This document shows, piece after piece, positions 10,911-54,930 of a DNA stretch of 64,000 nt. The stretch comes from Hirudinaria manillensis. Its lineage: Eukaryota; Annelida; Clitellata; Hirudinida; Hirudinidae. The stretch's first letter is position 1. Each line of letters starts with the position of its first letter. The position numbers and the translations under genes are program-made. Under the pieces are notes generated by a model that was not told the origin of the DNA, searched no databases, and worked only from the letters and a program-made list of their open reading frames with translations. The stretch spans positions 5,574,501 through 5,638,500 of the forward strand of contig CM067526.1 in NCBI GenBank assembly GCA_034509925.1, written 5' to 3'.

Positions 10911-10918
10911 GGAAATTG
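10911..10918. repeat. Left copy of 8-bp direct repeat flanking the tRNA array
   Basis: GGAAATTG ends on the first base of the tRNA-Thr remnant. The identical 8-mer is at 54931-54938, two bases beyond the other end of the array. This is the arrangement expected of a target-site duplication. See the array entry. Confidence 0.6.
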
Positions 10919-10939
10919 GTTCGAATCCCACTGGAGCCT
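10918..10939 (+). pseudogene. 22-nt 3' remnant of tRNA-Thr at the left array end
   Basis: Matches positions 53 to 74 of the tRNA-Thr copies exactly: from GGTTCGAATCC (the B box) through the 3' acceptor strand and discriminator T. Everything 5' of the B box is absent and replaced by unique AT-rich DNA. The normal downstream spacer follows. Confidence 0.85.
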
Positions 10940-11010
10940 ACTGGGTAACGGAGGTTTTGCCTGGACGATCGCCCTCCGACGAAAAAATTCGAGAGATCGC
11001 AAAACCCGTT

Positions 11011-11094
11011 TGTCAGGAGTGGGATTTCAACCCACGCCTGGAGAACCAGACTGCGACCTGAACGCAGCGCCTTGGACCGCTCGGCCATCCTGAC
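11011..11094 (-). tRNA. trnL-CAG: tRNA-Leu(CAG), edge copy 0, probably defective
   Basis: As the other tRNA-Leu copies except for C at 11028 where the others have G. This changes the invariant C56 of the T-loop to G, breaking the B box (GGTTGAAATCC) and the G19-C56 tertiary pair. It is the outermost copy and its following spacer also carries a private change (ctagCcaaag). Confidence 0.65.
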
Positions 11095-11450
11095 AATCGT
11101 CGGCAGAAAGGCAGAGGTCCAGCGGAACTCATTGCCTCGGACTGTCAGACGGCCGGAGAGACTAGCCAAAGCTAGGGAAAGTCAACCGTCCATCAACTGA
11201 CGGACGACACGCGACTTGCTGACCTCCCGAGGCGATACTTTCGGGTAACGGTCGTCCTCTCGCCACGATAACGTCACTTCCTAACGATAAATAAATTTTA
11301 ATCGAGACATTCCGAACGACGCTTGCCGCCGGCCACTCCGTTCGACGCATCGACCAAGCGTCCATCGACCGGACCGTGTGCCGGTGACCGTTGAGGTCCG
11401 AGACGGCCGTAGTATTGCATGGACCGGAAGTCCGGTTTGGCTGCGCGTGC

Positions 11451-11524
11451 GGCTCCATGGCTTAGTCGGTTAAAGCGCCTGCCTAGTAAGCAGGAGATCG
11501 TGGGTTCGAATCCCACTGGAGCCT
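11451..11524 (+). tRNA. trnT-AGU: tRNA-Thr(AGU), array copy 1 (reference copy)
   Basis: Full cloverleaf of 74 nt. The acceptor GGCTCCA pairs with TGGAGCC, with discriminator T and no encoded CCA. The D stem is GCTT/AAGC, the anticodon stem CCTGC/GCAGG with loop CTAGTAA (anticodon AGT at 11485-11487), the variable loop AGATC, and the T stem GTGGG/CCCAC with loop TTCGAAT. The A box TGGCTTAGTCGG (11458-11469) and B box GGTTCGAATCC (11503-11513) are intact. A34 is expected to become inosine and read ACU, ACC and ACA. There is no intron. TTTT follows 15 nt downstream. Confidence 0.97.
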
Positions 11525-11539
11525 ACTGGGTAACGGAGG

Positions 11540-11543
11540 TTTT
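11540..11543 (+). terminator. Pol III terminator of tRNA-Thr
   Basis: TTTT inside GGTTTTGC. It is the only plus-strand T-run before the Leu gene and is repeated in all units. Confidence 0.75.
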
Positions 11544-11566
11544 GCCTGGACGATCGCCCTCCGACG

Positions 11567-11572
11567 AAAAAA
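11567..11572 (-). terminator. Back-up Pol III terminator of tRNA-Leu
   Basis: Six T on the minus strand, downstream of the first TTTT. Confidence 0.7.
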
Positions 11573-11585
11573 TTCGAGAGATCGC

Positions 11586-11589
11586 AAAA
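11586..11589 (-). terminator. First Pol III terminator of tRNA-Leu
   Basis: TTTT on the minus strand 6 nt after the tRNA-Leu 3' end. Confidence 0.75.
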
Positions 11590-11595
11590 CCCGTT

Positions 11596-11679
11596 TGTCA
11601 GGAGTGGGATTTGAACCCACGCCTGGAGAACCAGACTGCGACCTGAACGCAGCGCCTTGGACCGCTCGGCCATCCTGAC
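11596..11679 (-). tRNA. trnL-CAG: tRNA-Leu(CAG), array copy 1 (reference copy)
   Basis: Class II tRNA of 84 nt on the minus strand. The acceptor GTCAGGA pairs with TCCTGAC, with discriminator A. The anticodon stem is CTGCG/CGCAG with loop TTCAGGT (anticodon CAG, complement of 11643-11645). The long variable arm is CTGG-TTCT-CCAG, and the T arm is GTGGG-TTCAAAT-CCCAC. The A box TGGCCGAGCGG (11672-11662) and B box GGTTCAAATCC (11617-11607) are intact. It reads CUG. Spacers are type L. Confidence 0.97.
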
Positions 11680-12035
11680 AATCGTCGGCAGAAAGGCAGA
11701 GGTCCAGCGGAACTCATTGCCTCGGACTGTCAGACGGCCGGAGAGACTAGCTAAAGCTAGGGAAAGTCAACCGTCCATCAACTGACGGACGACACGCGAC
11801 TTGCTGACCTCCCGAGGCGATACTTTCGGGTAACGGTCGTCCTCTCGCCACGATAACGTCACTTCCTAACGATAAATAAATTTTAATCGAGACATTCCGA
11901 ACGACGCTTGCCGCCGGCCACTCCGTTCGACGCATCGACCAAGCGTCCATCGACCGGACCGTGTGCCGGTGACCGTTGAGGTCCGAGACGGCCGTAGTAT
12001 TGCATGGACCGGAAGTCCGGTTTGGCTGCGCGTGC
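11680..12035. other. Divergent 356-bp spacer between Leu and next Thr (reference unit)
   Basis: GC-rich with one AT-rich island (ATAAATAAATTTTAAT near 11872-11887). It holds small hairpins: CCCGA/TCGGG around the gatac site, and ACCGGA-AG-TCCGGT 15 to 28 bp upstream of the next tRNA-Thr. No further RNA gene or protein is recognised; all open frames depend on the tRNA sequence or lack support. The 5' flanks of both tRNA genes lie here. Most subtype variation of the array falls in this spacer. Confidence 0.7.
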
Positions 12036-12109
12036 GGCTCCATGGCTTAGTCGGTTAAAGCGCCTGCCTAGTAAGCAGGAGATCGTGGGTTCGAATCCCA
12101 CTGGAGCCT
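12036..12109 (+). tRNA. trnT-AGU: tRNA-Thr(AGU), copy 2
   Basis: Same sequence as copy 1. Confidence 0.95.
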
Positions 12110-12180
12110 ACTGGGTAACGGAGGTTTTGCCTGGACGATCGCCCTCCGACGAAAAAATTCGAGAGATCGCAAAACCCGTT

Positions 12181-12264
12181 TGTCAGGAGTGGGATTTGAA
12201 CCCACGCCTGGAGAACCAGACTGCGACCTGAACGCAGCGCCTTGGACCGCTCGGCCATCCTGAC
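12181..12264 (-). tRNA. trnL-CAG: tRNA-Leu(CAG), copy 2
   Basis: Spacer departs from type L by cccgaAg and ctcTtgcc, a pair shared only with copy 6. Confidence 0.95.
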
Positions 12265-12620
12265 AATCGTCGGCAGAAAGGCAGAGGTCCAGCGGAACTC
12301 ATTGCCTCGGACTGTCAGACGGCCGGAGAGACTAGCTAAAGCTAGGGAAAGTCAACCGTCCATCAACTGACGGACGACACGCGACTTGCTGACCTCCCGA
12401 AGCGATACTTTCGGGTAACGGTCGTCCTCTTGCCACGATAACGTCACTTCCTAACGATAAATAAATTTTAATCGAGACATTCCGAACGACGCTTGCCGCC
12501 GGCCACTCCGTTCGACGCATCGACCAAGCGTCCATCGACCGGACCGTGTGCCGGTGACCGTTGAGGTCCGAGACGGCCGTAGTATTGCATGGACCGGAAG
12601 TCCGGTTTGGCTGCGCGTGC

Positions 12621-12694
12621 GGCTCCATGGCTTAGTCGGTTAAAGCGCCTGCCTAGTAAGCAGGAGATCGTGGGTTCGAATCCCACTGGAGCCT
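12621..12694 (+). tRNA. trnT-AGU: tRNA-Thr(AGU), copy 3
   Basis: Same sequence as copy 1. Confidence 0.95.
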
Positions 12695-12765
12695 ACTGGG
12701 TAACGGAGGTTTTGCCTGGACGATCGCCCTCCGACGAAAAAATTCGAGAGATCGCAAAACCCGTT

Positions 12766-12849
12766 TGTCAGGAGTGGGATTTGAACCCACGCCTGGAGAA
12801 CCAGACTGCGACCTGAACGCAGCGCCTTGGACCGCTCGGCCATCCTGAC
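12766..12849 (-). tRNA. trnL-CAG: tRNA-Leu(CAG), copy 3
   Basis: Type L spacers. Confidence 0.95.
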
Positions 12850-13205
12850 AATCGTCGGCAGAAAGGCAGAGGTCCAGCGGAACTCATTGCCTCGGACTGT
12901 CAGACGGCCGGAGAGACTAGCTAAAGCTAGGGAAAGTCAACCGTCCATCAACTGACGGACGACACGCGACTTGCTGACCTCCCGAGGCGATACTTTCGGG
13001 TAACGGTCGTCCTCTCGCCACGATAACGTCACTTCCTAACGATAAATAAATTTTAATCGAGACATTCCGAACGACGCTTGCCGCCGGCCACTCCGTTCGA
13101 CGCATCGACCAAGCGTCCATCGACCGGACCGTGTGCCGGTGACCGTTGAGGTCCGAGACGGCCGTAGTATTGCATGGACCGGAAGTCCGGTTTGGCTGCG
13201 CGTGC

Positions 13206-13279
13206 GGCTCCATGGCTTAGTCGGTTAAAGCGCCTGCCTAGTAAGCAGGAGATCGTGGGTTCGAATCCCACTGGAGCCT
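13206..13279 (+). tRNA. trnT-AGU: tRNA-Thr(AGU), copy 4
   Basis: Same sequence as copy 1. Confidence 0.95.
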
Positions 13280-13350
13280 ACTGGGTAACGGAGGTTTTGC
13301 CTGGACGATCGCCCTCCGACGAAAAAATTCGAGAGATCGCAAAACCCGTT

Positions 13351-13434
13351 TGTCAGGAGTGGGATTTGAACCCACGCCTGGAGAACCAGACTGCGACCTG
13401 AACGCAGCGCCTTGGACCGCTCGGCCATCCTGAC
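13351..13434 (-). tRNA. trnL-CAG: tRNA-Leu(CAG), copy 4
   Basis: Type L spacers. Confidence 0.95.
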
Positions 13435-13790
13435 AATCGTCGGCAGAAAGGCAGAGGTCCAGCGGAACTCATTGCCTCGGACTGTCAGACGGCCGGAGAG
13501 ACTAGCTAAAGCTAGGGAAAGTCAACCGTCCATCAACTGACGGACGACACGCGACTTGCTGACCTCCCGAGGCGATACTTTCGGGTAACGGTCGTCCTCT
13601 CGCCACGATAACGTCACTTCCTAACGATAAATAAATTTTAATCGAGACATTCCGAACGACGCTTGCCGCCGGCCACTCCGTTCGACGCATCGACCAAGCG
13701 TCCATCGACCGGACCGTGTGCCGGTGACCGTTGAGGTCCGAGACGGCCGTAGTATTGCATGGACCGGAAGTCCGGTTTGGCTGCGCGTGC

Positions 13791-13864
13791 GGCTCCATGG
13801 CTTAGTCGGTTAAAGCGCCTGCCTAGTAAGCAGGAGATCGTGGGTTCGAATCCCACTGGAGCCT
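13791..13864 (+). tRNA. trnT-AGU: tRNA-Thr(AGU), copy 5
   Basis: Same sequence as copy 1. Confidence 0.95.
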
Positions 13865-13935
13865 ACTGGGTAACGGAGGTTTTGCCTGGACGATCGCCCT
13901 CCGACGAAAAAATTCGAGAGATCGCAAAACCCGTT

Positions 13936-14019
13936 TGTCAGGAGTGGGATTTGAACCCACGCCTGGAGAACCAGACTGCGACCTGAACGCAGCGCCTTGG
14001 ACCGCTCGGCCATCCTGAC
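13936..14019 (-). tRNA. trnL-CAG: tRNA-Leu(CAG), copy 5
   Basis: Type L spacers. Confidence 0.95.
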
Positions 14020-14375
14020 AATCGTCGGCAGAAAGGCAGAGGTCCAGCGGAACTCATTGCCTCGGACTGTCAGACGGCCGGAGAGACTAGCTAAAGCTAG
14101 GGAAAGTCAACCGTCCATCAACTGACGGACGACACGCGACTTGCTGACCTCCCGAGGCGATACTTTCGGGTAACGGTCGTCCTCTCGCCACGATAACGTC
14201 ACTTCCTAACGATAAATAAATTTTAATCGAGACATTCCGAACGACGCTTGCCGCCGGCCACTCCGTTCGACGCATCGACCAAGCGTCCATCGACCGGACC
14301 GTGTGCCGGTGACCGTTGAGGTCCGAGACGGCCGTAGTATTGCATGGACCGGAAGTCCGGTTTGGCTGCGCGTGC

Positions 14376-14449
14376 GGCTCCATGGCTTAGTCGGTTAAAG
14401 CGCCTGCCTAGTAAGCAGGAGATCGTGGGTTCGAATCCCACTGGAGCCT
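14376..14449 (+). tRNA. trnT-AGU: tRNA-Thr(AGU), copy 6
   Basis: Same sequence as copy 1. Confidence 0.95.
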
Positions 14450-14520
14450 ACTGGGTAACGGAGGTTTTGCCTGGACGATCGCCCTCCGACGAAAAAATTC
14501 GAGAGATCGCAAAACCCGTT

Positions 14521-14604
14521 TGTCAGGAGTGGGATTTGAACCCACGCCTGGAGAACCAGACTGCGACCTGAACGCAGCGCCTTGGACCGCTCGGCCATCC
14601 TGAC
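14521..14604 (-). tRNA. trnL-CAG: tRNA-Leu(CAG), copy 6
   Basis: Spacer has cccgaAg and ctcTtgcc, as copy 2 exactly four units earlier. Confidence 0.95.
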
Positions 14605-14960
14605 AATCGTCGGCAGAAAGGCAGAGGTCCAGCGGAACTCATTGCCTCGGACTGTCAGACGGCCGGAGAGACTAGCTAAAGCTAGGGAAAGTCAACCGTC
14701 CATCAACTGACGGACGACACGCGACTTGCTGACCTCCCGAAGCGATACTTTCGGGTAACGGTCGTCCTCTTGCCACGATAACGTCACTTCCTAACGATAA
14801 ATAAATTTTAATCGAGACATTCCGAACGACGCTTGCCGCCGGCCACTCCGTTCGACGCATCGACCAAGCGTCCATCGACCGGACCGTGTGCCGGTGACCG
14901 TTGAGGTCCGAGACGGCCGTAGTATTGCATGGACCGGAAGTCCGGTTTGGCTGCGCGTGC

Positions 14961-15034
14961 GGCTCCATGGCTTAGTCGGTTAAAGCGCCTGCCTAGTAAG
15001 CAGGAGATCGTGGGTTCGAATCCCACTGGAGCCT
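14961..15034 (+). tRNA. trnT-AGU: tRNA-Thr(AGU), copy 7
   Basis: Same sequence as copy 1. Confidence 0.95.
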
Positions 15035-15105
15035 ACTGGGTAACGGAGGTTTTGCCTGGACGATCGCCCTCCGACGAAAAAATTCGAGAGATCGCAAAAC
15101 CCGTT

Positions 15106-15189
15106 TGTCAGGAGTGGGATTTGAACCCACGCCTGGAGAACCAGACTGCGACCTGAACGCAGCGCCTTGGACCGCTCGGCCATCCTGAC
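15106..15189 (-). tRNA. trnL-CAG: tRNA-Leu(CAG), copy 7
   Basis: Type L, with cgCgcgg just before the next Thr. Confidence 0.95.
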
Positions 15190-15545
15190 AATCGTCGGCA
15201 GAAAGGCAGAGGTCCAGCGGAACTCATTGCCTCGGACTGTCAGACGGCCGGAGAGACTAGCTAAAGCTAGGGAAAGTCAACCGTCCATCAACTGACGGAC
15301 GACACGCGACTTGCTGACCTCCCGAGGCGATACTTTCGGGTAACGGTCGTCCTCTCGCCACGATAACGTCACTTCCTAACGATAAATAAATTTTAATCGA
15401 GACATTCCGAACGACGCTTGCCGCCGGCCACTCCGTTCGACGCATCGACCAAGCGTCCATCGACCGGACCGTGTGCCGGTGACCGTTGAGGTCCGAGACG
15501 GCCGTAGTATTGCATGGACCGGAAGTCCGGTTTGGCTGCGCGCGC

Positions 15546-15619
15546 GGCTCCATGGCTTAGTCGGTTAAAGCGCCTGCCTAGTAAGCAGGAGATCGTGGGT
15601 TCGAATCCCACTGGAGCCT
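15546..15619 (+). tRNA. trnT-AGU: tRNA-Thr(AGU), copy 8
   Basis: Same sequence as copy 1. Confidence 0.95.
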
Positions 15620-15690
15620 ACTGGGTAACGGAGGTTTTGCCTGGACGATCGCCCTCCGACGAAAAAATTCGAGAGATCGCAAAACCCGTT

Positions 15691-15774
15691 TGTCAGGAGT
15701 GGGATTTGAACCCACGCCTGGAGAACCAGACTGCGACCTGAACGCAGCGCCTTGGACCGCTCGGCCATCCTGAC
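15691..15774 (-). tRNA. trnL-CAG: tRNA-Leu(CAG), copy 8
   Basis: Type L spacers. Confidence 0.95.
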
Positions 15775-16130
15775 AATCGTCGGCAGAAAGGCAGAGGTCC
15801 AGCGGAACTCATTGCCTCGGACTGTCAGACGGCCGGAGAGACTAGCTAAAGCTAGGGAAAGTCAACCGTCCATCAACTGACGGACGACACGCGACTTGCT
15901 GACCTCCCGAGGCGATACTTTCGGGTAACGGTCGTCCTCTCGCCACGATAACGTCACTTCCTAACGATAAATAAATTTTAATCGAGACATTCCGAACGAC
16001 GCTTGCCGCCGGCCACTCCGTTCGACGCATCGACCAAGCGTCCATCGACCGGACCGTGTGCCGGTGACCGTTGAGGTCCGAGACGGCCGTAGTATTGCAT
16101 GGACCGGAAGTCCGGTTTGGCTGCGCGTGC

Positions 16131-16204
16131 GGCTCCATGGCTTAGTCGGTTAAAGCGCCTGCCTAGTAAGCAGGAGATCGTGGGTTCGAATCCCACTGGA
16201 GCCT
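16131..16204 (+). tRNA. trnT-AGU: tRNA-Thr(AGU), copy 9
   Basis: Same sequence as copy 1. Confidence 0.95.
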
Positions 16205-16275
16205 ACTGGGTAACGGAGGTTTTGCCTGGACGATCGCCCTCCGACGAAAAAATTCGAGAGAACGCAAAACCCGTT

Positions 16276-16359
16276 TGTCAGGAGTGGGATTTGAACCCAC
16301 GCCTGGAGAACCAGACTGCGACCTGAACGCAGCGCCTTGGACCGCTCGGCCATCCTGAC
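16276..16359 (-). tRNA. trnL-CAG: tRNA-Leu(CAG), copy 9
   Basis: Spacers aacgc and ccggagg-gatac. This is the first aacgc unit. Confidence 0.95.
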
Positions 16360-16715
16360 AATCGTCGGCAGAAAGGCAGAGGTCCAGCGGAACTCATTGC
16401 CTCGGACTGTCAGACGGCCGGAGAGACTAGCTAAAGCTAGGGAAAGTCAACCGTCCATCAACTGACGGACGACACGCGACTTGCTGACCTCCGGAGGCGA
16501 TACTTTCGGGTAACGGTCGTCCTCTCGCCACGATAACGTCACTTCCTAACGATAAATAAATTTTAATCGAGACATTCCGAACGACGCTTGCCGCCGGCCA
16601 CTCCGTTCGACGCATCGACCAAGCGTCCATCGACCGGACCGTGTGCCGGTGACCGTTGAGGTCCGAGACGGCCGTAGTATTGCATGGACCGGAAGTCCGG
16701 TTTGGCTGCGCGTGC

Positions 16716-16789
16716 GGCTCCATGGCTTAGTCGGTTAAAGCGCCTGCCTAGTAAGCAGGAGATCGTGGGTTCGAATCCCACTGGAGCCT
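16716..16789 (+). tRNA. trnT-AGU: tRNA-Thr(AGU), copy 10
   Basis: Same sequence as copy 1. Confidence 0.95.
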
Positions 16790-16860
16790 ACTGGGTAACG
16801 GAGGTTTTGCCTGGACGATCGCCCTCCGACGAAAAAATTCGAGAGATCGCAAAACCCGTT

Positions 16861-16944
16861 TGTCAGGAGTGGGATTTGAACCCACGCCTGGAGAACCAGA
16901 CTGCGACCTGAACGCAGCGCCTTGGACCGCTCGGCCATCCTGAC
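16861..16944 (-). tRNA. trnL-CAG: tRNA-Leu(CAG), copy 10
   Basis: Type L spacers. Confidence 0.95.
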
Positions 16945-17300
16945 AATCGTCGGCAGAAAGGCAGAGGTCCAGCGGAACTCATTGCCTCGGACTGTCAGAC
17001 GGCCGGAGAGACTAGCTAAAGCTAGGGAAAGTCAACCGTCCATCAACTGACGGACGACACGCGACTTGCTGACCTCCCGAGGCGATACTTTCGGGTAACG
17101 GTCGTCCTCTCGCCACGATAACGTCACTTCCTAACGATAAATAAATTTTAATCGAGACATTCCGAACGACGCTTGCCGCCGGCCACTCCGTTCGACGCAT
17201 CGACCAAGCGTCCATCGACCGGACCGTGTGCCGGTGACCGTTGAGGTCCGAGACGGCCGTAGTATTGCATGGACCGGAAGTCCGGTTTGGCTGCGCGTGC

Positions 17301-17374
17301 GGCTCCATGGCTTAGTCGGTTAAAGCGCCTGCCTAGTAAGCAGGAGATCGTGGGTTCGAATCCCACTGGAGCCT
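17301..17374 (+). tRNA. trnT-AGU: tRNA-Thr(AGU), copy 11
   Basis: Same sequence as copy 1. Confidence 0.95.
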
Positions 17375-17445
17375 ACTGGGTAACGGAGGTTTTGCCTGGA
17401 CGATCGCCCTCCGACGAAAAAATTCGAGAGATCGCAAAACCCGTT

Positions 17446-17529
17446 TGTCAGGAGTGGGATTTGAACCCACGCCTGGAGAACCAGACTGCGACCTGAACGC
17501 AGCGCCTTGGACCGCTCGGCCATCCTGAC
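17446..17529 (-). tRNA. trnL-CAG: tRNA-Leu(CAG), copy 11
   Basis: Type L spacers. Confidence 0.95.
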
Positions 17530-17885
17530 AATCGTCGGCAGAAAGGCAGAGGTCCAGCGGAACTCATTGCCTCGGACTGTCAGACGGCCGGAGAGACTAG
17601 CTAAAGCTAGGGAAAGTCAACCGTCCATCAACTGACGGACGACACGCGACTTGCTGACCTCCCGAGGCGATACTTTCGGGTAACGGTCGTCCTCTCGCCA
17701 CGATAACGTCACTTCCTAACGATAAATAAATTTTAATCGAGACATTCCGAACGACGCTTGCCGCCGGCCACTCCGTTCGACGCATCGACCAAGCGTCCAT
17801 CGACCGGACCGTGTGCCGGTGACCGTTGAGGTCCGAGACGGCCGTAGTATTGCATGGACCGGAAGTCCGGTTTGGCTGCGCGTGC

Positions 17886-17959
17886 GGCTCCATGGCTTAG
17901 TCGGTTAAAGCGCCTGCCTAGTAAGCAGGAGATCGTGGGTTCGAATCCCACTGGAGCCT
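17886..17959 (+). tRNA. trnT-AGU: tRNA-Thr(AGU), copy 12
   Basis: Same sequence as copy 1. Confidence 0.95.
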
Positions 17960-18030
17960 ACTGGGTAACGGAGGTTTTGCCTGGACGATCGCCCTCCGAC
18001 GAAAAAATTCGAGAGATCGCAAAACCCGTT

Positions 18031-18114
18031 TGTCAGGAGTGGGATTTGAACCCACGCCTGGAGAACCAGACTGCGACCTGAACGCAGCGCCTTGGACCGC
18101 TCGGCCATCCTGAC
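18031..18114 (-). tRNA. trnL-CAG: tRNA-Leu(CAG), copy 12
   Basis: Type L spacers. Confidence 0.95.
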
Positions 18115-18470
18115 AATCGTCGGCAGAAAGGCAGAGGTCCAGCGGAACTCATTGCCTCGGACTGTCAGACGGCCGGAGAGACTAGCTAAAGCTAGGGAAA
18201 GTCAACCGTCCATCAACTGACGGACGACACGCGACTTGCTGACCTCCCGAGGCGATACTTTCGGGTAACGGTCGTCCTCTCGCCACGATAACGTCACTTC
18301 CTAACGATAAATAAATTTTAATCGAGACATTCCGAACGACGCTTGCCGCCGGCCACTCCGTTCGACGCATCGACCAAGCGTCCATCGACCGGACCGTGTG
18401 CCGGTGACCGTTGAGGTCCGAGACGGCCGTAGTATTGCATGGACCGGAAGTCCGGTTTGGCTGCGCGTGC

Positions 18471-18544
18471 GGCTCCATGGCTTAGTCGGTTAAAGCGCCT
18501 GCCTAGTAAGCAGGAGATCGTGGGTTCGAATCCCACTGGAGCCT
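18471..18544 (+). tRNA. trnT-AGU: tRNA-Thr(AGU), copy 13
   Basis: Same sequence as copy 1. Confidence 0.95.
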
Positions 18545-18615
18545 ACTGGGTAACGGAGGTTTTGCCTGGACGATCGCCCTCCGACGAAAAAATTCGAGAG
18601 ATCGCAAAACCCGTT

Positions 18616-18699
18616 TGTCAGGAGTGGGATTTGAACCCACGCCTGGAGAACCAGACTGCGACCTGAACGCAGCGCCTTGGACCGCTCGGCCATCCTGAC
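18616..18699 (-). tRNA. trnL-CAG: tRNA-Leu(CAG), copy 13
   Basis: Type L spacers. Confidence 0.95.
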
Positions 18700-19055
18700 A
18701 ATCGTCGGCAGAAAGGCAGAGGTCCAGCGGAACTCATTGCCTCGGACTGTCAGACGGCCGGAGAGACTAGCTAAAGCTAGGGAAAGTCAACCGTCCATCA
18801 ACTGACGGACGACACGCGACTTGCTGACCTCCCGAGGCGATACTTTCGGGTAACGGTCGTCCTCTCGCCACGATAACGTCACTTCCTAACGATAAATAAA
18901 TTTTAATCGAGACATTCCGAACGACGCTTGCCGCCGGCCACTCCGTTCGACGCATCGACCAAGCGTCCATCGACCGGACCGTGTGCCGGTGACCGTTGAG
19001 GTCCGAGACGGCCGTAGTATTGCATGGACCGGAAGTCCGGTTTGGCTGCGCGTGC

Positions 19056-26662: not shown

Positions 26663-26736
26663 GGCTCCATGGCTTAGTCGGTTAAAGCGCCTGCCTAGTA
26701 AGCAGGAGATCGTGGGTTCGAATCCCACTGGAGCCT
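26663..26736 (+). tRNA. trnT-AGU: tRNA-Thr(AGU), copy 27
   Basis: Same sequence as copy 1. Confidence 0.95.
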
Positions 26737-26807
26737 ACTGGGTAACGGAGGTTTTGCCTGGACGATCGCCCTCCGACGAAAAAATTCGAGAGAACGCAAA
26801 ACCCGTT

Positions 26808-26891
26808 TGTCAGGAGTGGGATTTGAACCCACGCCTGGAGAACCAGACTGCGACCTGAACGCAGCGCCTTGGACCGCTCGGCCATCCTGAC
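26808..26891 (-). tRNA. trnL-CAG: tRNA-Leu(CAG), copy 27
   Basis: Longest unit (591 bp), with a 6-bp gctaaa duplication near 26965. aacgc; cccgagg-gaaac; gatGaat. Confidence 0.95.
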
Positions 26892-27253
26892 AATCGTCGG
26901 CAGAAAGGCAGAGGTCCAGCGGAACTCATTGCCTCGGACTGTCAGACGGCCGGAGAGACTAGCTAAAGCTAAAGCTAGGGAAAGTCAACCGTCCATCAAC
27001 TGACGGACGACACGCGACTTGCTGACCTCCCGAGGCGAAACTTTCGGGTAACGGTCGTCCTCTCGCCACGATAACGTCACTTCCTAACGATGAATAAATT
27101 TTAATCGAGACATTCCGAACGACGCTTGCCGCCGGCCACTCCGTTCGACGCATCGACCAAGCGTCCATCGACCGGACCGTGTGCCGGTGACCGTTGAGGT
27201 CCGAGACGGCCGTAGTATTGCATGGACCGGAAGTCCGGTTTGGCTGCGCGTGC

Positions 27254-27328
27254 GGCTCCATGGCTTAGTCGGTTTAAAGCGCCTGCCTAGTAAGCAGGAG
27301 ATCGTGGGTTCGAATCCCACTGGAGCCT
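27254..27328 (+). tRNA. trnT-AGU: tRNA-Thr(AGU), copy 28, D-loop insertion
   Basis: 75 nt: one extra T in the D-loop (cggTTTaaagc). The A box itself is intact. Function is uncertain. Confidence 0.85.
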
Positions 27329-46797: not shown

Positions 46798-47154
46798 AAT
46801 CGTCGGCAGAGGGGCAGAGGTTCAGCGGAACTCATTGCCTCGGACTGTCAGACGGCCGGAGAGACTAGCTAAAGCTAGGGAAAGTCAACCGTCCATCAAC
46901 TGACGGACGACACGCGACTTGCTGACCTCCCGAGGCGATACTTTAACGGTAACGGTCGTCCTCTCGCCACGATAACGTCACTTCCTAACGATAAATAAAT
47001 TTTAATCGAGACATTCCGAATGACGCTTGCCGCCGGCCACTCCGTTCGACGCATCGACCAAACGTCCATCGACCGGACCGTGTGCCGGTGACCGTTGAGG
47101 TCCGAGACGGCCGTAGTATTGCATGGACCGGAAGTCCGGTTTGGCTGCGCGTGC

Positions 47155-47228
47155 GGCTCCATGGCTTAGTCGGTTAAAGCGCCTGCCTAGTAAGCAGGAG
47201 ATCGTGGGTTCGAATCCCACTGGAGCCT
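47155..47228 (+). tRNA. trnT-AGU: tRNA-Thr(AGU), copy 62
   Basis: Same sequence as copy 1. Confidence 0.95.
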
Positions 47229-47299
47229 ACTGGGTAACGGAGGTTTTGCCTGGACGATCGTCCTCCGACGAAAAAATTCGAGAGATCGCAAAACCCGTT

Positions 47300-47383
47300 T
47301 GTCAGGAGTGGGATTTGAACCCACGCCTGGAGAACCAGACTGCGACCTGAACGCAGCGCCTTGGACCGCTCGGCCATCCTGAC
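47300..47383 (-). tRNA. trnL-CAG: tRNA-Leu(CAG), copy 62
   Basis: Same marker set as copy 61. Confidence 0.95.
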
Positions 47384-47740
47384 AATCGTCGGCAGAGGGG
47401 CAGAGGTTCAGCGGAACTCATTGCCTCGGACTGTCAGACGGCCGGAGAGACTAGCTAAAGCTAGGGAAAGTCAACCGTCCATCAACTGACGGACGACACG
47501 CGACTTGCTGACCTCCCGAGGCGATACTTTAACGGTAACGGTCGTCCTCTCGCCACGATAACGTCACTTCCTAACGATAAATAAATTTTAATCGAGACAT
47601 TCCGAATGACGCTTGCCGCCGGCCACTCCGTTCGACGCATCGACCAAACGTCCATCGACCGGACCGTGTGCCGGTGACCGTTGAGGTCCGAGACGGCCGT
47701 AGTATTGCATGGACCGGAAGTCCGGTTTGGCTGCGCGTGC

Positions 47741-47814
47741 GGCTCCATGGCTTAGTCGGTTAAAGCGCCTGCCTAGTAAGCAGGAGATCGTGGGTTCGAA
47801 TCCCACTGGAGCCT
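47741..47814 (+). tRNA. trnT-AGU: tRNA-Thr(AGU), copy 63
   Basis: Same sequence as copy 1. Confidence 0.95.
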
Positions 47815-47885
47815 ACTGGGTAACGGAGGTTTTGCCTGGACGATCGTCCTCCGACGAAAAAATTCGAGAGATCGCAAAACCCGTT

Positions 47886-47969
47886 TGTCAGGAGTGGGAT
47901 TTGAACCCACGCCTGGAGAACCAGACTGCGACCTGAACGCAGCGCCTTGGACCGCTCGGCCATCCTGAC
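47886..47969 (-). tRNA. trnL-CAG: tRNA-Leu(CAG), copy 63
   Basis: As copy 61 but ccaaGcg; last tttAAcgg unit. Confidence 0.95.
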
Positions 47970-48326
47970 AATCGTCGGCAGAGGGGCAGAGGTTCAGCGG
48001 AACTCATTGCCTCGGACTGTCAGACGGCCGGAGAGACTAGCTAAAGCTAGGGAAAGTCAACCGTCCATCAACTGACGGACGACACGCGACTTGCTGACCT
48101 CCCGAGGCGATACTTTAACGGTAACGGTCGTCCTCTCGCCACGATAACGTCACTTCCTAACGATAAATAAATTTTAATCGAGACATTCCGAATGACGCTT
48201 GCCGCCGGCCACTCCGTTCGACGCATCGACCAAGCGTCCATCGACCGGACCGTGTGCCGGTGACCGTTGAGGTCCGAGACGGCCGTAGTATTGCATGGAC
48301 CGGAAGTCCGGTTTGGCTGCGCGTGC

Positions 48327-48400
48327 GGCTCCATGGCTTAGTCGGTTAAAGCGCCTGCCTAGTAAGCAGGAGATCGTGGGTTCGAATCCCACTGGAGCCT
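48327..48400 (+). tRNA. trnT-AGU: tRNA-Thr(AGU), copy 64
   Basis: Same sequence as copy 1. Confidence 0.95.
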
Positions 48401-48471
48401 ACTGGGTAACGGAGGTTTTGCCTGGACGATCGTCCTCCGACGAAAAAATTCGAGAGATCGCAAAACCCGTT

Positions 48472-48555
48472 TGTCAGGAGTGGGATTTGAACCCACGCCT
48501 GGAGAACCAGACTGCGACCTGAACGCAGCGCCTTGGACCGCTCGGCCATCCTGAC
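48472..48555 (-). tRNA. trnL-CAG: tRNA-Leu(CAG), copy 64
   Basis: First cggTagagggg unit; gTcc; ccggagg-gaaac. Confidence 0.95.
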
Positions 48556-48911
48556 AATCGTCGGTAGAGGGGCAGAGGTCCAGCGGAACTCATTGCCTCG
48601 GACTGTCAGACGGCCGGAGAGACTAGCTAAAGCTAGGGAAAGTCAACCGTCCATCAACTGACGGACGACACGCGACTTGCTGACCTCCGGAGGCGAAACT
48701 TTCGGGTAACGGTCGTCCTCTCGCCACGATAACGTCACTTCCTAACGATAAATAAATTTTAATCGAGACATTCCGAACGACGCTTGCCGCCGGCCACTCC
48801 GTTCGACGCATCGACCAAGCGTCCATCGACCGGACCGTGTGCCGGTGACCGTTGAGGTCCGAGACGGCCGTAGTATTGCATGGACCGGAAGTCCGGTTTG
48901 GCTGCGCGTGC

Positions 48912-48985
48912 GGCTCCATGGCTTAGTCGGTTAAAGCGCCTGCCTAGTAAGCAGGAGATCGTGGGTTCGAATCCCACTGGAGCCT
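48912..48985 (+). tRNA. trnT-AGU: tRNA-Thr(AGU), copy 65
   Basis: Same sequence as copy 1. Confidence 0.95.
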
Positions 48986-49056
48986 ACTGGGTAACGGAGG
49001 TTTTGCCTGGACGATCGCCCTCCGACGAAAAAATTCGAGAGATCGCAAAACCCGTT

Positions 49057-49140
49057 TGTCAGGAGTGGGATTTGAACCCACGCCTGGAGAACCAGACTGC
49101 GACCTGAACGCAGCGCCTTGGACCGCTCGGCCATCCTGAC
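49057..49140 (-). tRNA. trnL-CAG: tRNA-Leu(CAG), copy 65
   Basis: agggg; ggTtgcg before the next Thr. Confidence 0.95.
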
Positions 49141-49496
49141 AATCGTCGGCAGAGGGGCAGAGGTCCAGCGGAACTCATTGCCTCGGACTGTCAGACGGCC
49201 GGAGAGACTAGCTAAAGCTAGGGAAAGTCAACCGTCCATCAACTGACGGACGACACGCGACTTGCTGACCTCCCGAGGCGATACTTTCGGGTAACGGTCG
49301 TCCTCTCGCCACGATAACGTCACTTCCTAACGATAAATAAATTTTAATCGAGACATTCCGAACGACGCTTGCCGCCGGCCACTCCGTTCGACGCATCGAC
49401 CAAGCGTCCATCGACCGGACCGTGTGCCGGTGACCGTTGAGGTCCGAGACGGCCGTAGTATTGCATGGACCGGAAGTCCGGTTTGGTTGCGCGTGC

Positions 49497-49570
49497 GGCT
49501 CCATGGCTTAGTCGGTTAAAGCGCCTGCCTAGTAAGCAGGAGATTGTGGGTTCGAATCCCACTGGAGCCT
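49497..49570 (+). tRNA. trnT-AGU: tRNA-Thr(AGU), copy 66, variable-loop variant
   Basis: T at 49545 replaces C48 (agatT), which normally pairs with G15. The 3' trailer also has actgTgt. It is probably still foldable. Confidence 0.9.
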
Positions 49571-49641
49571 ACTGTGTAACGGAGGTTTTGCCTGGACGAT
49601 CGTCCTCCGACGAAAAAATTCGAGAGATCGCAAAACCCGTT

Positions 49642-49725
49642 TGTCAGGAGTGGGATTTGAACCCACGCCTGGAGAACCAGACTGCGACCTGAACGCAGCG
49701 CCTTGGACCGCTCGGCCATCCTGAC
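49642..49725 (-). tRNA. trnL-CAG: tRNA-Leu(CAG), copy 66
   Basis: gTcc; gtagagggg. Confidence 0.95.
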
Positions 49726-50081
49726 AATCGTCGGTAGAGGGGCAGAGGTCCAGCGGAACTCATTGCCTCGGACTGTCAGACGGCCGGAGAGACTAGCTAA
49801 AGCTAGGGAAAGTCAACCGTCCATCAACTGACGGACGACACGCGACTTGCTGACCTCCCGAGGCGATACTTTCGGGTAACGGTCGTCCTCTCGCCACGAT
49901 AACGTCACTTCCTAACGATAAATAAATTTTAATCGAGACATTCCGAACGACGCTTGCCGCCGGCCACTCCGTTCGACGCATCGACCAAGCGTCCATCGAC
50001 CGGACCGTGTGCCGGTGACCGTTGAGGTCCGAGACGGCCGTAGTATTGCATGGACCGGAAGTCCGGTTTGGCTGCGCGTGC

Positions 50082-50155
50082 GGCTCCATGGCTTAGTCGG
50101 TTAAAGCGCCTGCCTAGTAAGCAGGAGATCGTGGGTTCGAATCCCACTGGAGCCT
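50082..50155 (+). tRNA. trnT-AGU: tRNA-Thr(AGU), copy 67
   Basis: Same sequence as copy 1. Confidence 0.95.
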
Positions 50156-50226
50156 ACTGGGTAACGGAGGTTTTGCCTGGACGATCGCCCTCCGACGAAA
50201 AAATTCGAGAGATCGCAAAACCCGTT

Positions 50227-50310
50227 TGTCAGGAGTGGGATTTGAACCCACGCCTGGAGAACCAGACTGCGACCTGAACGCAGCGCCTTGGACCGCTCGG
50301 CCATCCTGAC
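50227..50310 (-). tRNA. trnL-CAG: tRNA-Leu(CAG), copy 67
   Basis: gtagagggg; private gtcaTttcc. Confidence 0.95.
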
Positions 50311-50666
50311 AATCGTCGGTAGAGGGGCAGAGGTCCAGCGGAACTCATTGCCTCGGACTGTCAGACGGCCGGAGAGACTAGCTAAAGCTAGGGAAAGTCA
50401 ACCGTCCATCAACTGACGGACGACACGCGACTTGCTGACCTCCCGAGGCGATACTTTCGGGTAACGGTCGTCCTCTCGCCACGATAACGTCATTTCCTAA
50501 CGATAAATAAATTTTAATCGAGACATTCCGAACGACGCTTGCCGCCGGCCACTCCGTTCGACGCATCGACCAAGCGTCCATCGACCGGACCGTGTGCCGG
50601 TGACCGTTGAGGTCCGAGACGGCCGTAGTATTGCATGGACCGGAAGTCCGGTTTGGCTGCGCGTGC

Positions 50667-50740
50667 GGCTCCATGGCTTAGTCGGTTAAAGCGCCTGCCT
50701 AGTAAGCAGGAGATCGTGGGTTCGAATCCCACTGGAGCCT
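50667..50740 (+). tRNA. trnT-AGU: tRNA-Thr(AGU), copy 68
   Basis: Same sequence as copy 1. Confidence 0.95.
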
Positions 50741-50811
50741 ACTGGGTAACGGAGGTTTTGCCTGGACGATCGTCCTCCGACGAAAAAATTCGAGAGATCG
50801 CAAAACCCGTT

Positions 50812-50895
50812 TGTCAGGAGTGGGATTTGAACCCACGCCTGGAGAACCAGACTGCGACCTGAACGCAGCGCCTTGGACCGCTCGGCCATCCTGAC
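50812..50895 (-). tRNA. trnL-CAG: tRNA-Leu(CAG), copy 68
   Basis: gTcc; gtagagggg; ccggagg-gaaac. Confidence 0.95.
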
Positions 50896-51251
50896 AATCG
50901 TCGGTAGAGGGGCAGAGGTCCAGCGGAACTCATTGCCTCGGACTGTCAGACGGCCGGAGAGACTAGCTAAAGCTAGGGAAAGTCAACCGTCCATCAACTG
51001 ACGGACGACACGCGACTTGCTGACCTCCGGAGGCGAAACTTTCGGGTAACGGTCGTCCTCTCGCCACGATAACGTCACTTCCTAACGATAAATAAATTTT
51101 AATCGAGACATTCCGAACGACGCTTGCCGCCGGCCACTCCGTTCGACGCATCGACCAAGCGTCCATCGACCGGACCGTGTGCCGGTGACCGTTGAGGTCC
51201 GAGACGGCCGTAGTATTGCATGGACCGGAAGTCCGGTTTGGCTGCGCGTGC

Positions 51252-51325
51252 GGCTCCATGGCTTAGTCGGTTAAAGCGCCTGCCTAGTAAGCAGGAGATC
51301 GTGGGTTCGAATCCCACTGGAGCCT
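51252..51325 (+). tRNA. trnT-AGU: tRNA-Thr(AGU), copy 69
   Basis: Same sequence as copy 1. Confidence 0.95.
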
Positions 51326-51396
51326 ACTGGGTAACGGAGGTTTTGCCTGGACGATCGTCCTCCGACGAAAAAATTCGAGAGATCGCAAAACCCGTT

Positions 51397-51480
51397 TGTC
51401 AGGAGTGGGATTTGAACCCACGCCTGGAGAACCAGACTGCGACCTGAACGCAGCGCCTTGGACCGCTCGGCCATCCTGAC
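51397..51480 (-). tRNA. trnL-CAG: tRNA-Leu(CAG), copy 69
   Basis: Same marker set as copy 68. Confidence 0.95.
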
Positions 51481-51836
51481 AATCGTCGGTAGAGGGGCAG
51501 AGGTCCAGCGGAACTCATTGCCTCGGACTGTCAGACGGCCGGAGAGACTAGCTAAAGCTAGGGAAAGTCAACCGTCCATCAACTGACGGACGACACGCGA
51601 CTTGCTGACCTCCGGAGGCGAAACTTTCGGGTAACGGTCGTCCTCTCGCCACGATAACGTCACTTCCTAACGATAAATAAATTTTAATCGAGACATTCCG
51701 AACGACGCTTGCCGCCGGCCACTCCGTTCGACGCATCGACCAAGCGTCCATCGACCGGACCGTGTGCCGGTGACCGTTGAGGTCCGAGACGGCCGTAGTA
51801 TTGCATGGACCGGAAGTCCGGTTTGGCTGCGCGTGC

Positions 51837-51910
51837 GGCTCCATGGCTTAGTCGGTTAAAGCGCCTGCCTAGTAAGCAGGAGATCGTGGGTTCGAATCCC
51901 ACTGGAGCCT
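51837..51910 (+). tRNA. trnT-AGU: tRNA-Thr(AGU), copy 70
   Basis: Same sequence as copy 1. Confidence 0.95.
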
Positions 51911-51981
51911 ACTGGGTAACGGAGGTTTTGCCTGGACGATCGTCCTCCGACGAAAAAATTCGAGAGATCGCAAAACCCGTT

Positions 51982-52065
51982 TGTCAGGAGTGGGATTTGA
52001 ACCCACGCCTGGAGAACCAGACTGCGACCTGAACGCAGCGCCTTGGACCGCTCGGCCATCCTGAC
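51982..52065 (-). tRNA. trnL-CAG: tRNA-Leu(CAG), copy 70
   Basis: As copy 68, plus ggTtgcg before the next Thr (shared with unit 65). Confidence 0.95.
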
Positions 52066-52421
52066 AATCGTCGGTAGAGGGGCAGAGGTCCAGCGGAACT
52101 CATTGCCTCGGACTGTCAGACGGCCGGAGAGACTAGCTAAAGCTAGGGAAAGTCAACCGTCCATCAACTGACGGACGACACGCGACTTGCTGACCTCCGG
52201 AGGCGAAACTTTCGGGTAACGGTCGTCCTCTCGCCACGATAACGTCACTTCCTAACGATAAATAAATTTTAATCGAGACATTCCGAACGACGCTTGCCGC
52301 CGGCCACTCCGTTCGACGCATCGACCAAGCGTCCATCGACCGGACCGTGTGCCGGTGACCGTTGAGGTCCGAGACGGCCGTAGTATTGCATGGACCGGAA
52401 GTCCGGTTTGGTTGCGCGTGC

Positions 52422-52495
52422 GGCTCCATGGCTTAGTCGGTTAAAGCGCCTGCCTAGTAAGCAGGAGATCGTGGGTTCGAATCCCACTGGAGCCT
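52422..52495 (+). tRNA. trnT-AGU: tRNA-Thr(AGU), copy 71
   Basis: Same sequence as copy 1. Confidence 0.95.
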
Positions 52496-52566
52496 ACTGG
52501 GTAACGGAGGTTTTGCCTGGACGATCGCCCTCCGACGAAAAAATTCGAGAGATCGCAAAACCCGTT

Positions 52567-52650
52567 TGTCAGGAGTGGGATTTGAACCCACGCCTGGAGA
52601 ACCAGACTGCGACCTGAACGCAGCGCCTAGGACCGCTCGGCCATCCTGAC
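52567..52650 (-). tRNA. trnL-CAG: tRNA-Leu(CAG), copy 71, D-loop variant
   Basis: A at 52629 instead of T changes a D-loop A to U (gtccTagg), beside the D stem. The spacer has private aaaggcTg and ccTgagg-gaaac. Confidence 0.88.
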
Positions 52651-53006
52651 AATCGTCGGCAGAAAGGCTGAGGTCCAGCGGAACTCATTGCCTCGGACTG
52701 TCAGACGGCCGGAGAGACTAGCTAAAGCTAGGGAAAGTCAACCGTCCATCAACTGACGGACGACACGCGACTTGCTGACCTCCTGAGGCGAAACTTTCGG
52801 GTAACGGTCGTCCTCTCGCCACGATAACGTCACTTCCTAACGATAAATAAATTTTAATCGAGACATTCCGAACGACGCTTGCCGCCGGCCACTCCGTTCG
52901 ACGCATCGACCAAGCGTCCATCGACCGGACCGTGTGCCGGTGACCGTTGAGGTCCGAGACGGCCGTAGTATTGCATGGACCGGAAGTCCGGTTTGGCTGC
53001 GCGTGC

Positions 53007-53080
53007 GGCTCCATGGCTTAGTCGGTTAAAGCGCCTGCCTAGTAAGCAGGAGATCGTGGGTTCGAATCCCACTGGAGCCT
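53007..53080 (+). tRNA. trnT-AGU: tRNA-Thr(AGU), copy 72
   Basis: Same sequence as copy 1. Confidence 0.95.
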
Positions 53081-53151
53081 ACTGGGTAACGGAGGTTTTG
53101 CCTGGACGATCGTCCTCCGACGAAAAAATTCGAGAGATCGCAAAACCCGTT

Positions 53152-53235
53152 TGTCAGGAGTGGGATTTGAACCCACGCCTGGAGAACCAGACTGCGACCT
53201 GAACGCAGCGCCTTGGACCGCTCGGCCATCCTGAC
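53152..53235 (-). tRNA. trnL-CAG: tRNA-Leu(CAG), copy 72
   Basis: Same marker set as copy 68. Confidence 0.95.
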
Positions 53236-53591
53236 AATCGTCGGTAGAGGGGCAGAGGTCCAGCGGAACTCATTGCCTCGGACTGTCAGACGGCCGGAGA
53301 GACTAGCTAAAGCTAGGGAAAGTCAACCGTCCATCAACTGACGGACGACACGCGACTTGCTGACCTCCGGAGGCGAAACTTTCGGGTAACGGTCGTCCTC
53401 TCGCCACGATAACGTCACTTCCTAACGATAAATAAATTTTAATCGAGACATTCCGAACGACGCTTGCCGCCGGCCACTCCGTTCGACGCATCGACCAAGC
53501 GTCCATCGACCGGACCGTGTGCCGGTGACCGTTGAGGTCCGAGACGGCCGTAGTATTGCATGGACCGGAAGTCCGGTTTGGCTGCGCGTGC

Positions 53592-53665
53592 GGCTCCATG
53601 GCTTAGTCGGTTAAAGCGCCTGCCTAGTAAGCAGGAGATCGTGGGTTCGAATCCCACTGGAGCCT
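53592..53665 (+). tRNA. trnT-AGU: tRNA-Thr(AGU), copy 73
   Basis: Same sequence as copy 1. Confidence 0.95.
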
Positions 53666-53736
53666 ACTGGGTAACGGAGGTTTTGCCTGGACGATCGTCC
53701 TCCGACGAAAAAATTCGAGAGATCGCAAAACCCGTT

Positions 53737-53820
53737 TGTCAGGAGTGGGATTTGAACCCACGCCTGGAGAACCAGACTGCGACCTGAACGCAGCGCCTTG
53801 GACCGCTCGGCCATCCTGAC
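53737..53820 (-). tRNA. trnL-CAG: tRNA-Leu(CAG), copy 73
   Basis: Same marker set as copy 68. Confidence 0.95.
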
Positions 53821-54176
53821 AATCGTCGGTAGAGGGGCAGAGGTCCAGCGGAACTCATTGCCTCGGACTGTCAGACGGCCGGAGAGACTAGCTAAAGCTA
53901 GGGAAAGTCAACCGTCCATCAACTGACGGACGACACGCGACTTGCTGACCTCCGGAGGCGAAACTTTCGGGTAACGGTCGTCCTCTCGCCACGATAACGT
54001 CACTTCCTAACGATAAATAAATTTTAATCGAGACATTCCGAACGACGCTTGCCGCCGGCCACTCCGTTCGACGCATCGACCAAGCGTCCATCGACCGGAC
54101 CGTGTGCCGGTGACCGTTGAGGTCCGAGACGGCCGTAGTATTGCATGGACCGGAAGTCCGGTTTGGCTGCGCGTGC

Positions 54177-54250
54177 GGCTCCATGGCTTAGTCGGTTAAA
54201 GCGCCTGCCTAGTAAGCAGGAGATCGTGGGTTCGAATCCCACTGGAGCCT
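54177..54250 (+). tRNA. trnT-AGU: tRNA-Thr(AGU), copy 74
   Basis: Same sequence as copy 1. Confidence 0.95.
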
Positions 54251-54321
54251 ACTGGGTAACGGAGGTTTTGCCTGGACGATCGTCCTCCGACGAAAAAATT
54301 CGAGAGATCGCAAAACCCGTT

Positions 54322-54405
54322 TGTCAGGAGTGGGATTTGAACCCACGCCTGGAGAACCAGACTGCGACCTGAACGCAGCGCCTTGGACCGCTCGGCCATC
54401 CTGAC
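54322..54405 (-). tRNA. trnL-CAG: tRNA-Leu(CAG), copy 74 (last complete)
   Basis: Same marker set as copy 68. Confidence 0.95.
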
Positions 54406-54761
54406 AATCGTCGGTAGAGGGGCAGAGGTCCAGCGGAACTCATTGCCTCGGACTGTCAGACGGCCGGAGAGACTAGCTAAAGCTAGGGAAAGTCAACCGT
54501 CCATCAACTGACGGACGACACGCGACTTGCTGACCTCCGGAGGCGAAACTTTCGGGTAACGGTCGTCCTCTCGCCACGATAACGTCACTTCCTAACGATA
54601 AATAAATTTTAATCGAGACATTCCGAACGACGCTTGCCGCCGGCCACTCCGTTCGACGCATCGACCAAGCGTCCATCGACCGGACCGTGTGCCGGTGACC
54701 GTTGAGGTCCGAGACGGCCGTAGTATTGCATGGACCGGAAGTCCGGTTTGGCTGCGCGTGC

Positions 54762-54835
54762 GGCTCCATGGCTTAGTCGGTTAAAGCGCCTGCCTAGTAA
54801 GCAGGAGATCGTGGGTTCGAATCCCACTGGAGCCT
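54762..54835 (+). tRNA. trnT-AGU: tRNA-Thr(AGU), copy 75 (last)
   Basis: Same sequence as copy 1. It is followed by a normal Thr-Leu spacer (gCcc, atcgc) and then the truncated tRNA-Leu. Confidence 0.95.
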
Positions 54836-54906
54836 ACTGGGTAACGGAGGTTTTGCCTGGACGATCGCCCTCCGACGAAAAAATTCGAGAGATCGCAAAA
54901 CCCGTT

Positions 54907-54928
54907 TGTCAGGAGTGGGATTTGAACC
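54907..54928 (-). pseudogene. 22-nt 3' remnant of tRNA-Leu at the right array end
   Basis: On the minus strand it reads from GGTTCAAATCC (the B box) through the 3' acceptor strand and discriminator A, exactly as the intact copies. At 54929 homology stops: TC then GGAAATTG. The 5' two thirds of the tRNA is missing. It is the counterpart, in opposite orientation, of the tRNA-Thr remnant at the left end. Confidence 0.85.
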
Positions 54929-54930
54929 TC

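Follow-up and report, generated by a model that had tools for sequence, protein, structure and literature searches.

In this study, we analysed a window of 64,000 nucleotides from the leech Hirudinaria manillensis (C1:5574501-5638500, contig CM067526.1, of a genome assembly with 148,429,096 bases in 23 contigs). The window, which is without any N, contains a tandem array of tRNA-Thr and tRNA-Leu genes. The reported edges of this array were confirmed, and together with a candidate duplication in the flanks they have a transposon-like anatomy; the mechanism behind it is interesting but unproved. The explanation that we favour, tentatively, is that the array is an insertion and that a DNA transposase took inverted T-arms of tRNA genes as accidental ends. 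The main features, in positions of the window, are as follows.

10918-54928, no strand assigned: tandem array of about 44 kb, in which 75 units, each about 585 bp long, are followed by 115 bp
10918-10939, + strand: left array edge, where tRNA-Thr keeps only the 22 nt of its 3' end, beginning with the first G of its B box (edge comparison)
54907-54928, - strand: right array edge, where tRNA-Leu keeps only the 22 nt of its 3' end, beginning with the first G of its B box (edge comparison)
10909-10917, + strand: left copy of the candidate 9-bp target-site duplication, TTGGAAATT (exact-edge junction)
54929-54937, + strand: right copy of the candidate 9-bp target-site duplication, TCGGAAATT (exact-edge junction)
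11503-11617, no strand assigned: 115-bp T-arm-to-T-arm piece of the kind that begins and ends the array; imperfect foldback with a 19-bp inverted repeat, arms 11499-11517 and 11603-11621

Inverted Ends and Flanking Duplication

The left edge of the array (10918) is unit position 53 and the right edge (54928) is unit position 167. The tRNA 3' remnants of 22 nt at these edges are GGTTCGAATCCCACT (10918-10939) and GGTTCAAATCCCACT (54907-54928), the tRNA-Leu remnant being counted from the usual discriminator A. A preliminary description of the window had reported two such remnants in opposite orientation, each with the first G of its B box as the starting base, and the edges at units 53 and 167 confirm this. 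Comparison of the ends also verified its claim that they are inverted over 15 bp with one mismatch. Because the T-arms of different tRNAs are alike, the inverted ends add nothing beyond the statement that both edges lie at the same tRNA position. Among all pairs of left and right unit positions, 10 of 342,225 (2.9e-5) gave inverted termini that extend over 15 bp or more and differ at no more than one position, a post hoc count; when one base either way was allowed at each end, the chance was 1.7e-4, for a pattern chosen because it was seen.

The 115 bp that are left over beyond whole units are exactly the distance from the Thr T-arm to the Leu T-arm, and the earlier argument that a circle with an integer number of units cannot account for the array ends holds on this remainder. 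Within the unit the inverted repeat is 19 bp long, and the array edges sit 4 bp inside it, short of its outer end. Similarity to the unit ends at the T-arm on both sides. When 600 bp from either flank were aligned locally to the unit, on both strands, the result was only matches of 9-14 bp (scores 18-21, without a null), and unit similarity beyond the T-arm, which the preliminary description had named as the finding that would speak against it, was therefore absent.

With the junctions set at the symmetric edges, the array is flanked by TTGGAAATT and TCGGAAATT, which are identical at 8 of 9 positions. The sole mismatch (TCGG/TTGG) is C/T at a CpG in the right copy, a transition of the CpG-to-TpG type. 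Among random flank pairs, 810 of 1,994,107 (4e-4) matched at 8 or more of the 9 positions. An alternative duplication of 8 bp without mismatch, GGAAATTG, is found at 10911-10918 and 54931-54938, and an 8-bp match with offsets up to 3 was found in 213 of 297,575 random flank pairs. We prefer the 9-bp reading, in which no filler has to be assumed and the two edges fall on the same base of the tRNA. Inverted ends with a duplication abutting them look like the anatomy of a transposon. Transposons of the hAT type make an 8-bp duplication of the form nTnnnnAn; they were ruled out, as GGAAATTG has G at position 2 and T at position 7.

Structure of the Array

ARAGORN predicted 150 tRNA genes in the window, namely 75 tRNA-Thr(AGT) on the + strand and 75 tRNA-Leu(CAG) on the - strand, and none in the rest of the window outside the array. 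The 150 genes thus lie in 75 head-to-tail units, as in a tandem tRNA gene array. The two genes of each unit are convergent, 3' end facing 3' end. A representative unit is annotated as follows, with the ARAGORN call for tRNA-Leu trimmed by one base at each end, as inferred from the acceptor stem.

11451-11524, + strand: tRNA-Thr(AGT), unit positions 1-74 (ARAGORN)
11596-11679, - strand: tRNA-Leu(CAG), convergent to tRNA-Thr (ARAGORN 11595-11680, unit positions 145-230)

The period is 585 in 55 of the 74 intervals and 583-591 in the remaining ones. Cutting at unit position 53 yields 75 full units and then the last piece of 115 bp. The G+C content is 57-58% in 2-kb segments fully within the array and 25-36% in five segments to its left. 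The alignment of the units has 53 variable columns, of which 30 are singletons. The mean pairwise difference between units is 5.7; neighbours differ by 3.7 and the value reaches 6.9 at long range, and a greater likeness of neighbours than of distant units is the pattern that unequal exchange gives. In a test for selection, the tRNA genes contained 5 of the 32 columns with substitutions, compared with 27% expected (P 0.09). Unit 28 (26715-27305) has 12 differences from the consensus, with six extra bases at unit position 298 and one in tRNA-Thr. The first tRNA-Leu (11010-11095) has a T-arm substitution, G to C at unit position 163, that is absent from the other 74 aligned units; such a unique change is expected there, because homogenisation reaches the end of an array less.

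No open reading frame (ORF) of at least 120 aa was found anywhere in the window, intron-split frames left aside. Exons of a cyclin gene lie on the + strand at 60280-61181, about 5 kb to the right of the array (Cyclin_N, E 1.2e-28 and 2.7e-10; Cyclin_C, E 1e-4).

Copies Elsewhere in the Genome

We searched the genome for the T-arm-to-T-arm pattern, and all of its 75 forward places fell within the array. The first unit, in which the Leu T-arm is mutated, is absent from these 75 places. The pattern of the 22-nt remnants occurs at 76 places per strand. The 76 forward places are the 75 tRNA-Thr genes and the left remnant, all within the array; on the reverse strand, for which 24 places are listed, 74 tRNA-Leu genes, the right remnant and a solo tRNA-Thr on contig C10 (L008) would sum to 76. 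No second array or solo unit was found in the genome among the best-scored candidates. For the Leu-side stretch of 234 bp, the best 40 of 75 genome candidates were all inside the array, which is expected if the whole array moved or its donor was lost. In a survey of the genome with the Rfam tRNA model RF00005, the best 63 of 10,475 candidates all (63/63) lay in the array, and further tRNA arrays may exist elsewhere in the genome. Judged from the best-scored candidates, tRNA-Leu(CAG)-like genes may be confined to the array within this assembly, the nearest others found being Leu(AAG) with 76-78% identity.

An empty site was sought by paralogy, and each 1-kb flank matched itself alone in a genome search that skips very common words. 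One 30-base piece of the unit had no exact counterpart in viral contigs. As no second copy was found, the edges of the array stand without a counterpart for comparison.

A Proposed Transposase Acting on Inverted T-Arms

In a tandem array of this kind, a right-facing Thr T-arm and any later left-facing Leu T-arm would together form an inverted repeat. A transposase that accepts inverted repeats with terminal GG could cut at such T-arms and release a piece of 585n+115 bp, and a staggered cut of the target at insertion would leave a duplication of 8-9 bp. Because every Thr T-arm is inverted to a later Leu T-arm, the phase from unit 53 to unit 167 is what this mechanism predicts. The inserted piece may have been 44 kb already, or it may have been a 700-bp founder enlarged later by unequal exchange; such a founder would measure at least 700 bp and carry direct repeats of 115 bp at either end, sufficient for such growth. 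We infer the agency of a transposase, its Merlin type and the loss of the donor array. Cutting or strand transfer at the T-arm had been proposed in the preliminary description, and it gains indirect support from the inverted ends and the flanking duplication. The tRNA 3' fragments of the 18-22 nt class, also named there as possible primers, include CCA and are expected to start near position 55-59, not 52.

Merlin elements are DNA transposons of the IS1016/IS1595 type. Studies have shown that they have terminal GG, inverted repeats of 24-462 bp and duplications of 8 or 9 bp (PMC8101967). The array resembles them in its 5'-GG termini, its inverted ends and its candidate duplication of 8-9 bp (PMC8101967). 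The genome has 19 matches to the Merlin transposase domain PF12762, and five aligned copies are 98-99% identical. GGTATTCCC starts both ends in 5 of 5 copies with both ends read (L089-L092, L096), and these resident copies share the GGT start with the array ends. Exact 9-bp duplications were found at L089, L090 and L092 (3 of the 5 that could be checked); these copies (for example, C13:1866584-1867946) are about 1.36 kb long with inverted repeats of 290 bp. The flanks of L096, CTCTAATTTG and CTCTATTTG, differ by one inserted base, and L091 has no duplication at the ends read. The copy L093 is without a right end, and no clear ends were found in the diverged second group (L095, L097) nor in L085/L094. 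A Merlin enzyme with the right duplication length is present in the genome and, judged by the likeness of its copies, was recently active.

Unlike Merlin elements, the array has tRNA T-arms as its ends, a 44-kb tandem array as its cargo and no long ORF. We did not class it as Merlin, because no ORF of 120 aa or more lies within it; at most, it could be claimed to be a non-autonomous substrate.

Several points weigh against a transposase, and against Merlin in particular. The duplication is imperfect (8/9), and when any length from 4 to 11 was allowed, an equally good chance match was found in 1274 of about 400,000 random pairs (0.3%). The 8-bp reading implies a 2-base filler on the right and one missing base on the left, which is not clean transposition. 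The insertion is a single event without replication, and 44 kb is a large cargo for a transposase of this type, except where the array became longer only once it had been inserted. The array ends resemble the resident Merlin terminus in GGT alone, and GGT starts at 22 of 1170 unit positions. Only 3 of the first 12 bases agree between array end and Merlin terminus, a score that 725 of 1170 unit positions reach or exceed. At the level of sequence, nothing links Merlin to the array ends. MULE (Mutator-like) transposase genes are also present in the genome (7 matches), so the 9-bp duplication does not point to Merlin alone. Mutator-like elements make duplications of 9-11 bp and have inverted repeats; the duplication of the array is 9 bp at 8/9, and no MULE ends were found in the three loci scanned. 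The inverted repeat of 15 bp is also short compared with the 24-462 bp of Merlin (PMC8101967).

Other Explanations of the Array Edges

Since there is one event only, the mechanism stays between a transposase and capture during repair. Repair capture, which we regard as quite possible, assumes that a staggered break took up a linear concatemer of units, which came from a broken array or, by a rolling-circle process, from extrachromosomal circles. Filled-in overhangs would give the 8-bp GGAAATTG, and TC at the right would be filler. The exact 8-bp reading with a 2-base filler does resemble end joining. Documented cases include rolling-circle intermediates as well as circles made of an exact multiple of tandem genes (PMC3225859), and tRNA genes of yeast are sites of breaks and rearrangements (PMC7990762). 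The edges would then have arisen by nuclease trimming that was halted by the T-arm foldback or by a hypothetical roadblock of bound TFIIIC, or they would owe something to luck. The 115-bp piece holds the longest inverted repeat listed for the unit, and its predicted folding is better than that of 200 of 200 shuffles (z -3.53). However, trimming of a hairpin should halt at the base of the 19-bp repeat, yet the edges are 4 bp inside it. Repair capture also needs a separate, added rule for the mirror-image edges, for which the chance is 1.7e-4.

It is less probable that the edges were set at random, by insertion or in assembly, and that T-arm symmetry and duplication are chance features noticed afterwards. 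There is a single array with a post hoc pattern, its copy number and junctions rest on the assembly, and the length-free chance of the duplication is 0.3%. However, two separate coincidences would be required, the window has no N, and a misjoin is not expected to make a shared word of 8-9 bp.

Helitrons begin with TC at the 5' end, finish with CTRR behind a hairpin at the 3' end, and make no target duplication on insertion. A Helitron origin of the array edges was rejected on anatomy, as there is no TC and no CTAG and a candidate duplication is present. We consider it very unlikely that rolling-circle transposition of a Helitron without a proper terminator laid down the array. Helitrons share unit positions 393-446, one Helitron subfamily has tRNA-Thr positions 12-36 as its 3' terminus, and a similar proposal exists for the tRNA-Cys cluster of Arabidopsis (PMC10701932), but the edges are at unit 53 and 167, whereas CTAG is at unit 33-36, and the left edge has no TC start. 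Helitrons insert at AT (PMC4778049). That a native Thr-Leu pair grew into the array at its present site through unequal crossing over, with edges eroded later, is hardly credible: it suits the homogenised units (mean pairwise difference 5.7, neighbours 3.7), but neither 600-bp flank keeps unit sequence, with no stretch over 14 bp, and erosion produces no flanking duplication.

Helitrons That End in tRNA-Thr

Two parts of the unit are shared with dispersed elements of the genome.

11843-11896, + strand: stretch common to Helitrons, unit positions 393-446, 54 bp, about 140 bp upstream of tRNA-Thr (genome search)
11451-11486, + strand: tRNA-Thr, unit positions 1-36; a Helitron subfamily at other sites of the genome has positions 12-36 as its 3' terminus (CTAG)

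A dispersed element, which has TCTATATAAATAAAAATG at its 5' end and CTAG at its 3' end, carries unit positions 393-446 and 12-36 at this 3' end. Helitrons are marked by CTAG, an AT target and a 3' hairpin (PMC4778049), and by anatomy the dispersed element is a Helitron. We compared 25 copies, a non-random set, as 13 of its 19 tRNA-ended copies were picked for that end and six came from the unit search, with L015 and L016 left out. In this set, 19 of 25 have tRNA-Thr sequence at their end, as far as the CTAG in the anticodon loop, five have an ordinary hairpin and CTAG (L079-L081, L012, L018), and one (L013) is a shortened form. A precedes the TC start in 16 of the 18 copies with TC found, and T mostly follows CTAG. 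Among the best 40 of 649 Helitron candidates, 24 reach the tRNA-derived end and 16 stop before it. The pattern of the junction between Helitron and tRNA was found at 33 places in the genome with at most 3 mismatches, and the control gave 0. Examples are C11:3774516-3774547 (in L019), L010 and L022. The copy L010 (C9:1686907-1687002) has 96 bp of the unit (527-585 and 1-37) with 92% identity.

Because unit positions 393-446 and tRNA-Thr positions 12-36 are common to Helitrons, there was contact between these elements and the unit or an ancestor of it. We speculated that, most likely, a Helitron upstream of tRNA-Thr read through and adopted the D-arm of the tRNA and CTAG as its terminus, leaving 393-446 in the unit. 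This order, with the Helitron first, is the likeliest because the 393-446 stretch is also present in copies with the ordinary end. In Arabidopsis, the tRNA-Cys cluster overlaps annotated Helitrons, and a tRNA as Helitron terminator has been suggested (PMC10701932). The leech array is similar in that a tandem tRNA unit is mixed with Helitron sequence (PMC10701932). In contrast, no reliable Helitron prediction was obtained over the tRNA genes in that study (PMC10701932), whereas here dispersed Helitrons end in tRNA-Thr. The copies that end in tRNA-Thr bear directly on the speculation published there that a tRNA may serve as terminator (PMC10701932).

Comparison with Known Systems and Significance

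Large clusters or arrays of tandem or clustered tRNA genes are known in eukaryotes, for example in Entamoeba (PMC2888827) and in Arabidopsis, which has 27 Ser-Tyr-Tyr units (PMC10701932). Unlike those clusters, as far as these sources describe them, the leech array resembles a single insertion with inverted tRNA-derived edges and a duplication. With the Helenus TRIM retrotransposons, whose long terminal repeats (LTRs) contain tRNA-derived sequence, it shares tRNA sequence at the ends of an element (PMC10886601). Helenus has duplications of 4-5 bp and LTRs (PMC10886601), whereas the array has a duplication of 8-9 bp and no LTR anatomy. An LTR retrotransposon with a tRNA-derived LTR was rejected as an identity of the array, given the 8-9 bp duplication and a 115-bp terminal direct repeat that starts with GG and ends with CC. 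Among the titles and abstract openings covered by our literature searches, none reported that T-arms of tRNAs serve as the ends of a transposon, although such a report may exist in print.

Eukaryotic tRNA genes change place quickly, with a turnover comparable to that of unconstrained sequence (PMC2888827). The array locus offers a concrete, testable model, in which inverted T-arms act as accidental ends of a transposon. In its general form, which we hold to be doubtful, a convergent tRNA pair would be a ready-made transposon, its inverted T-arms (GGTTCRAATCCCACT) serving as ends for a resident GG-type transposase such as Merlin, and blocks that run from the T-arm of a tRNA-Thr to that of a later tRNA-Leu, up to the full array of 44 kb, would be movable. 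If this is true, convergent tRNA pairs could be mobile in any genome with such a transposase, since the T-arm motif is common to tRNA genes, and this would help to explain the fast positional change of tRNA genes.

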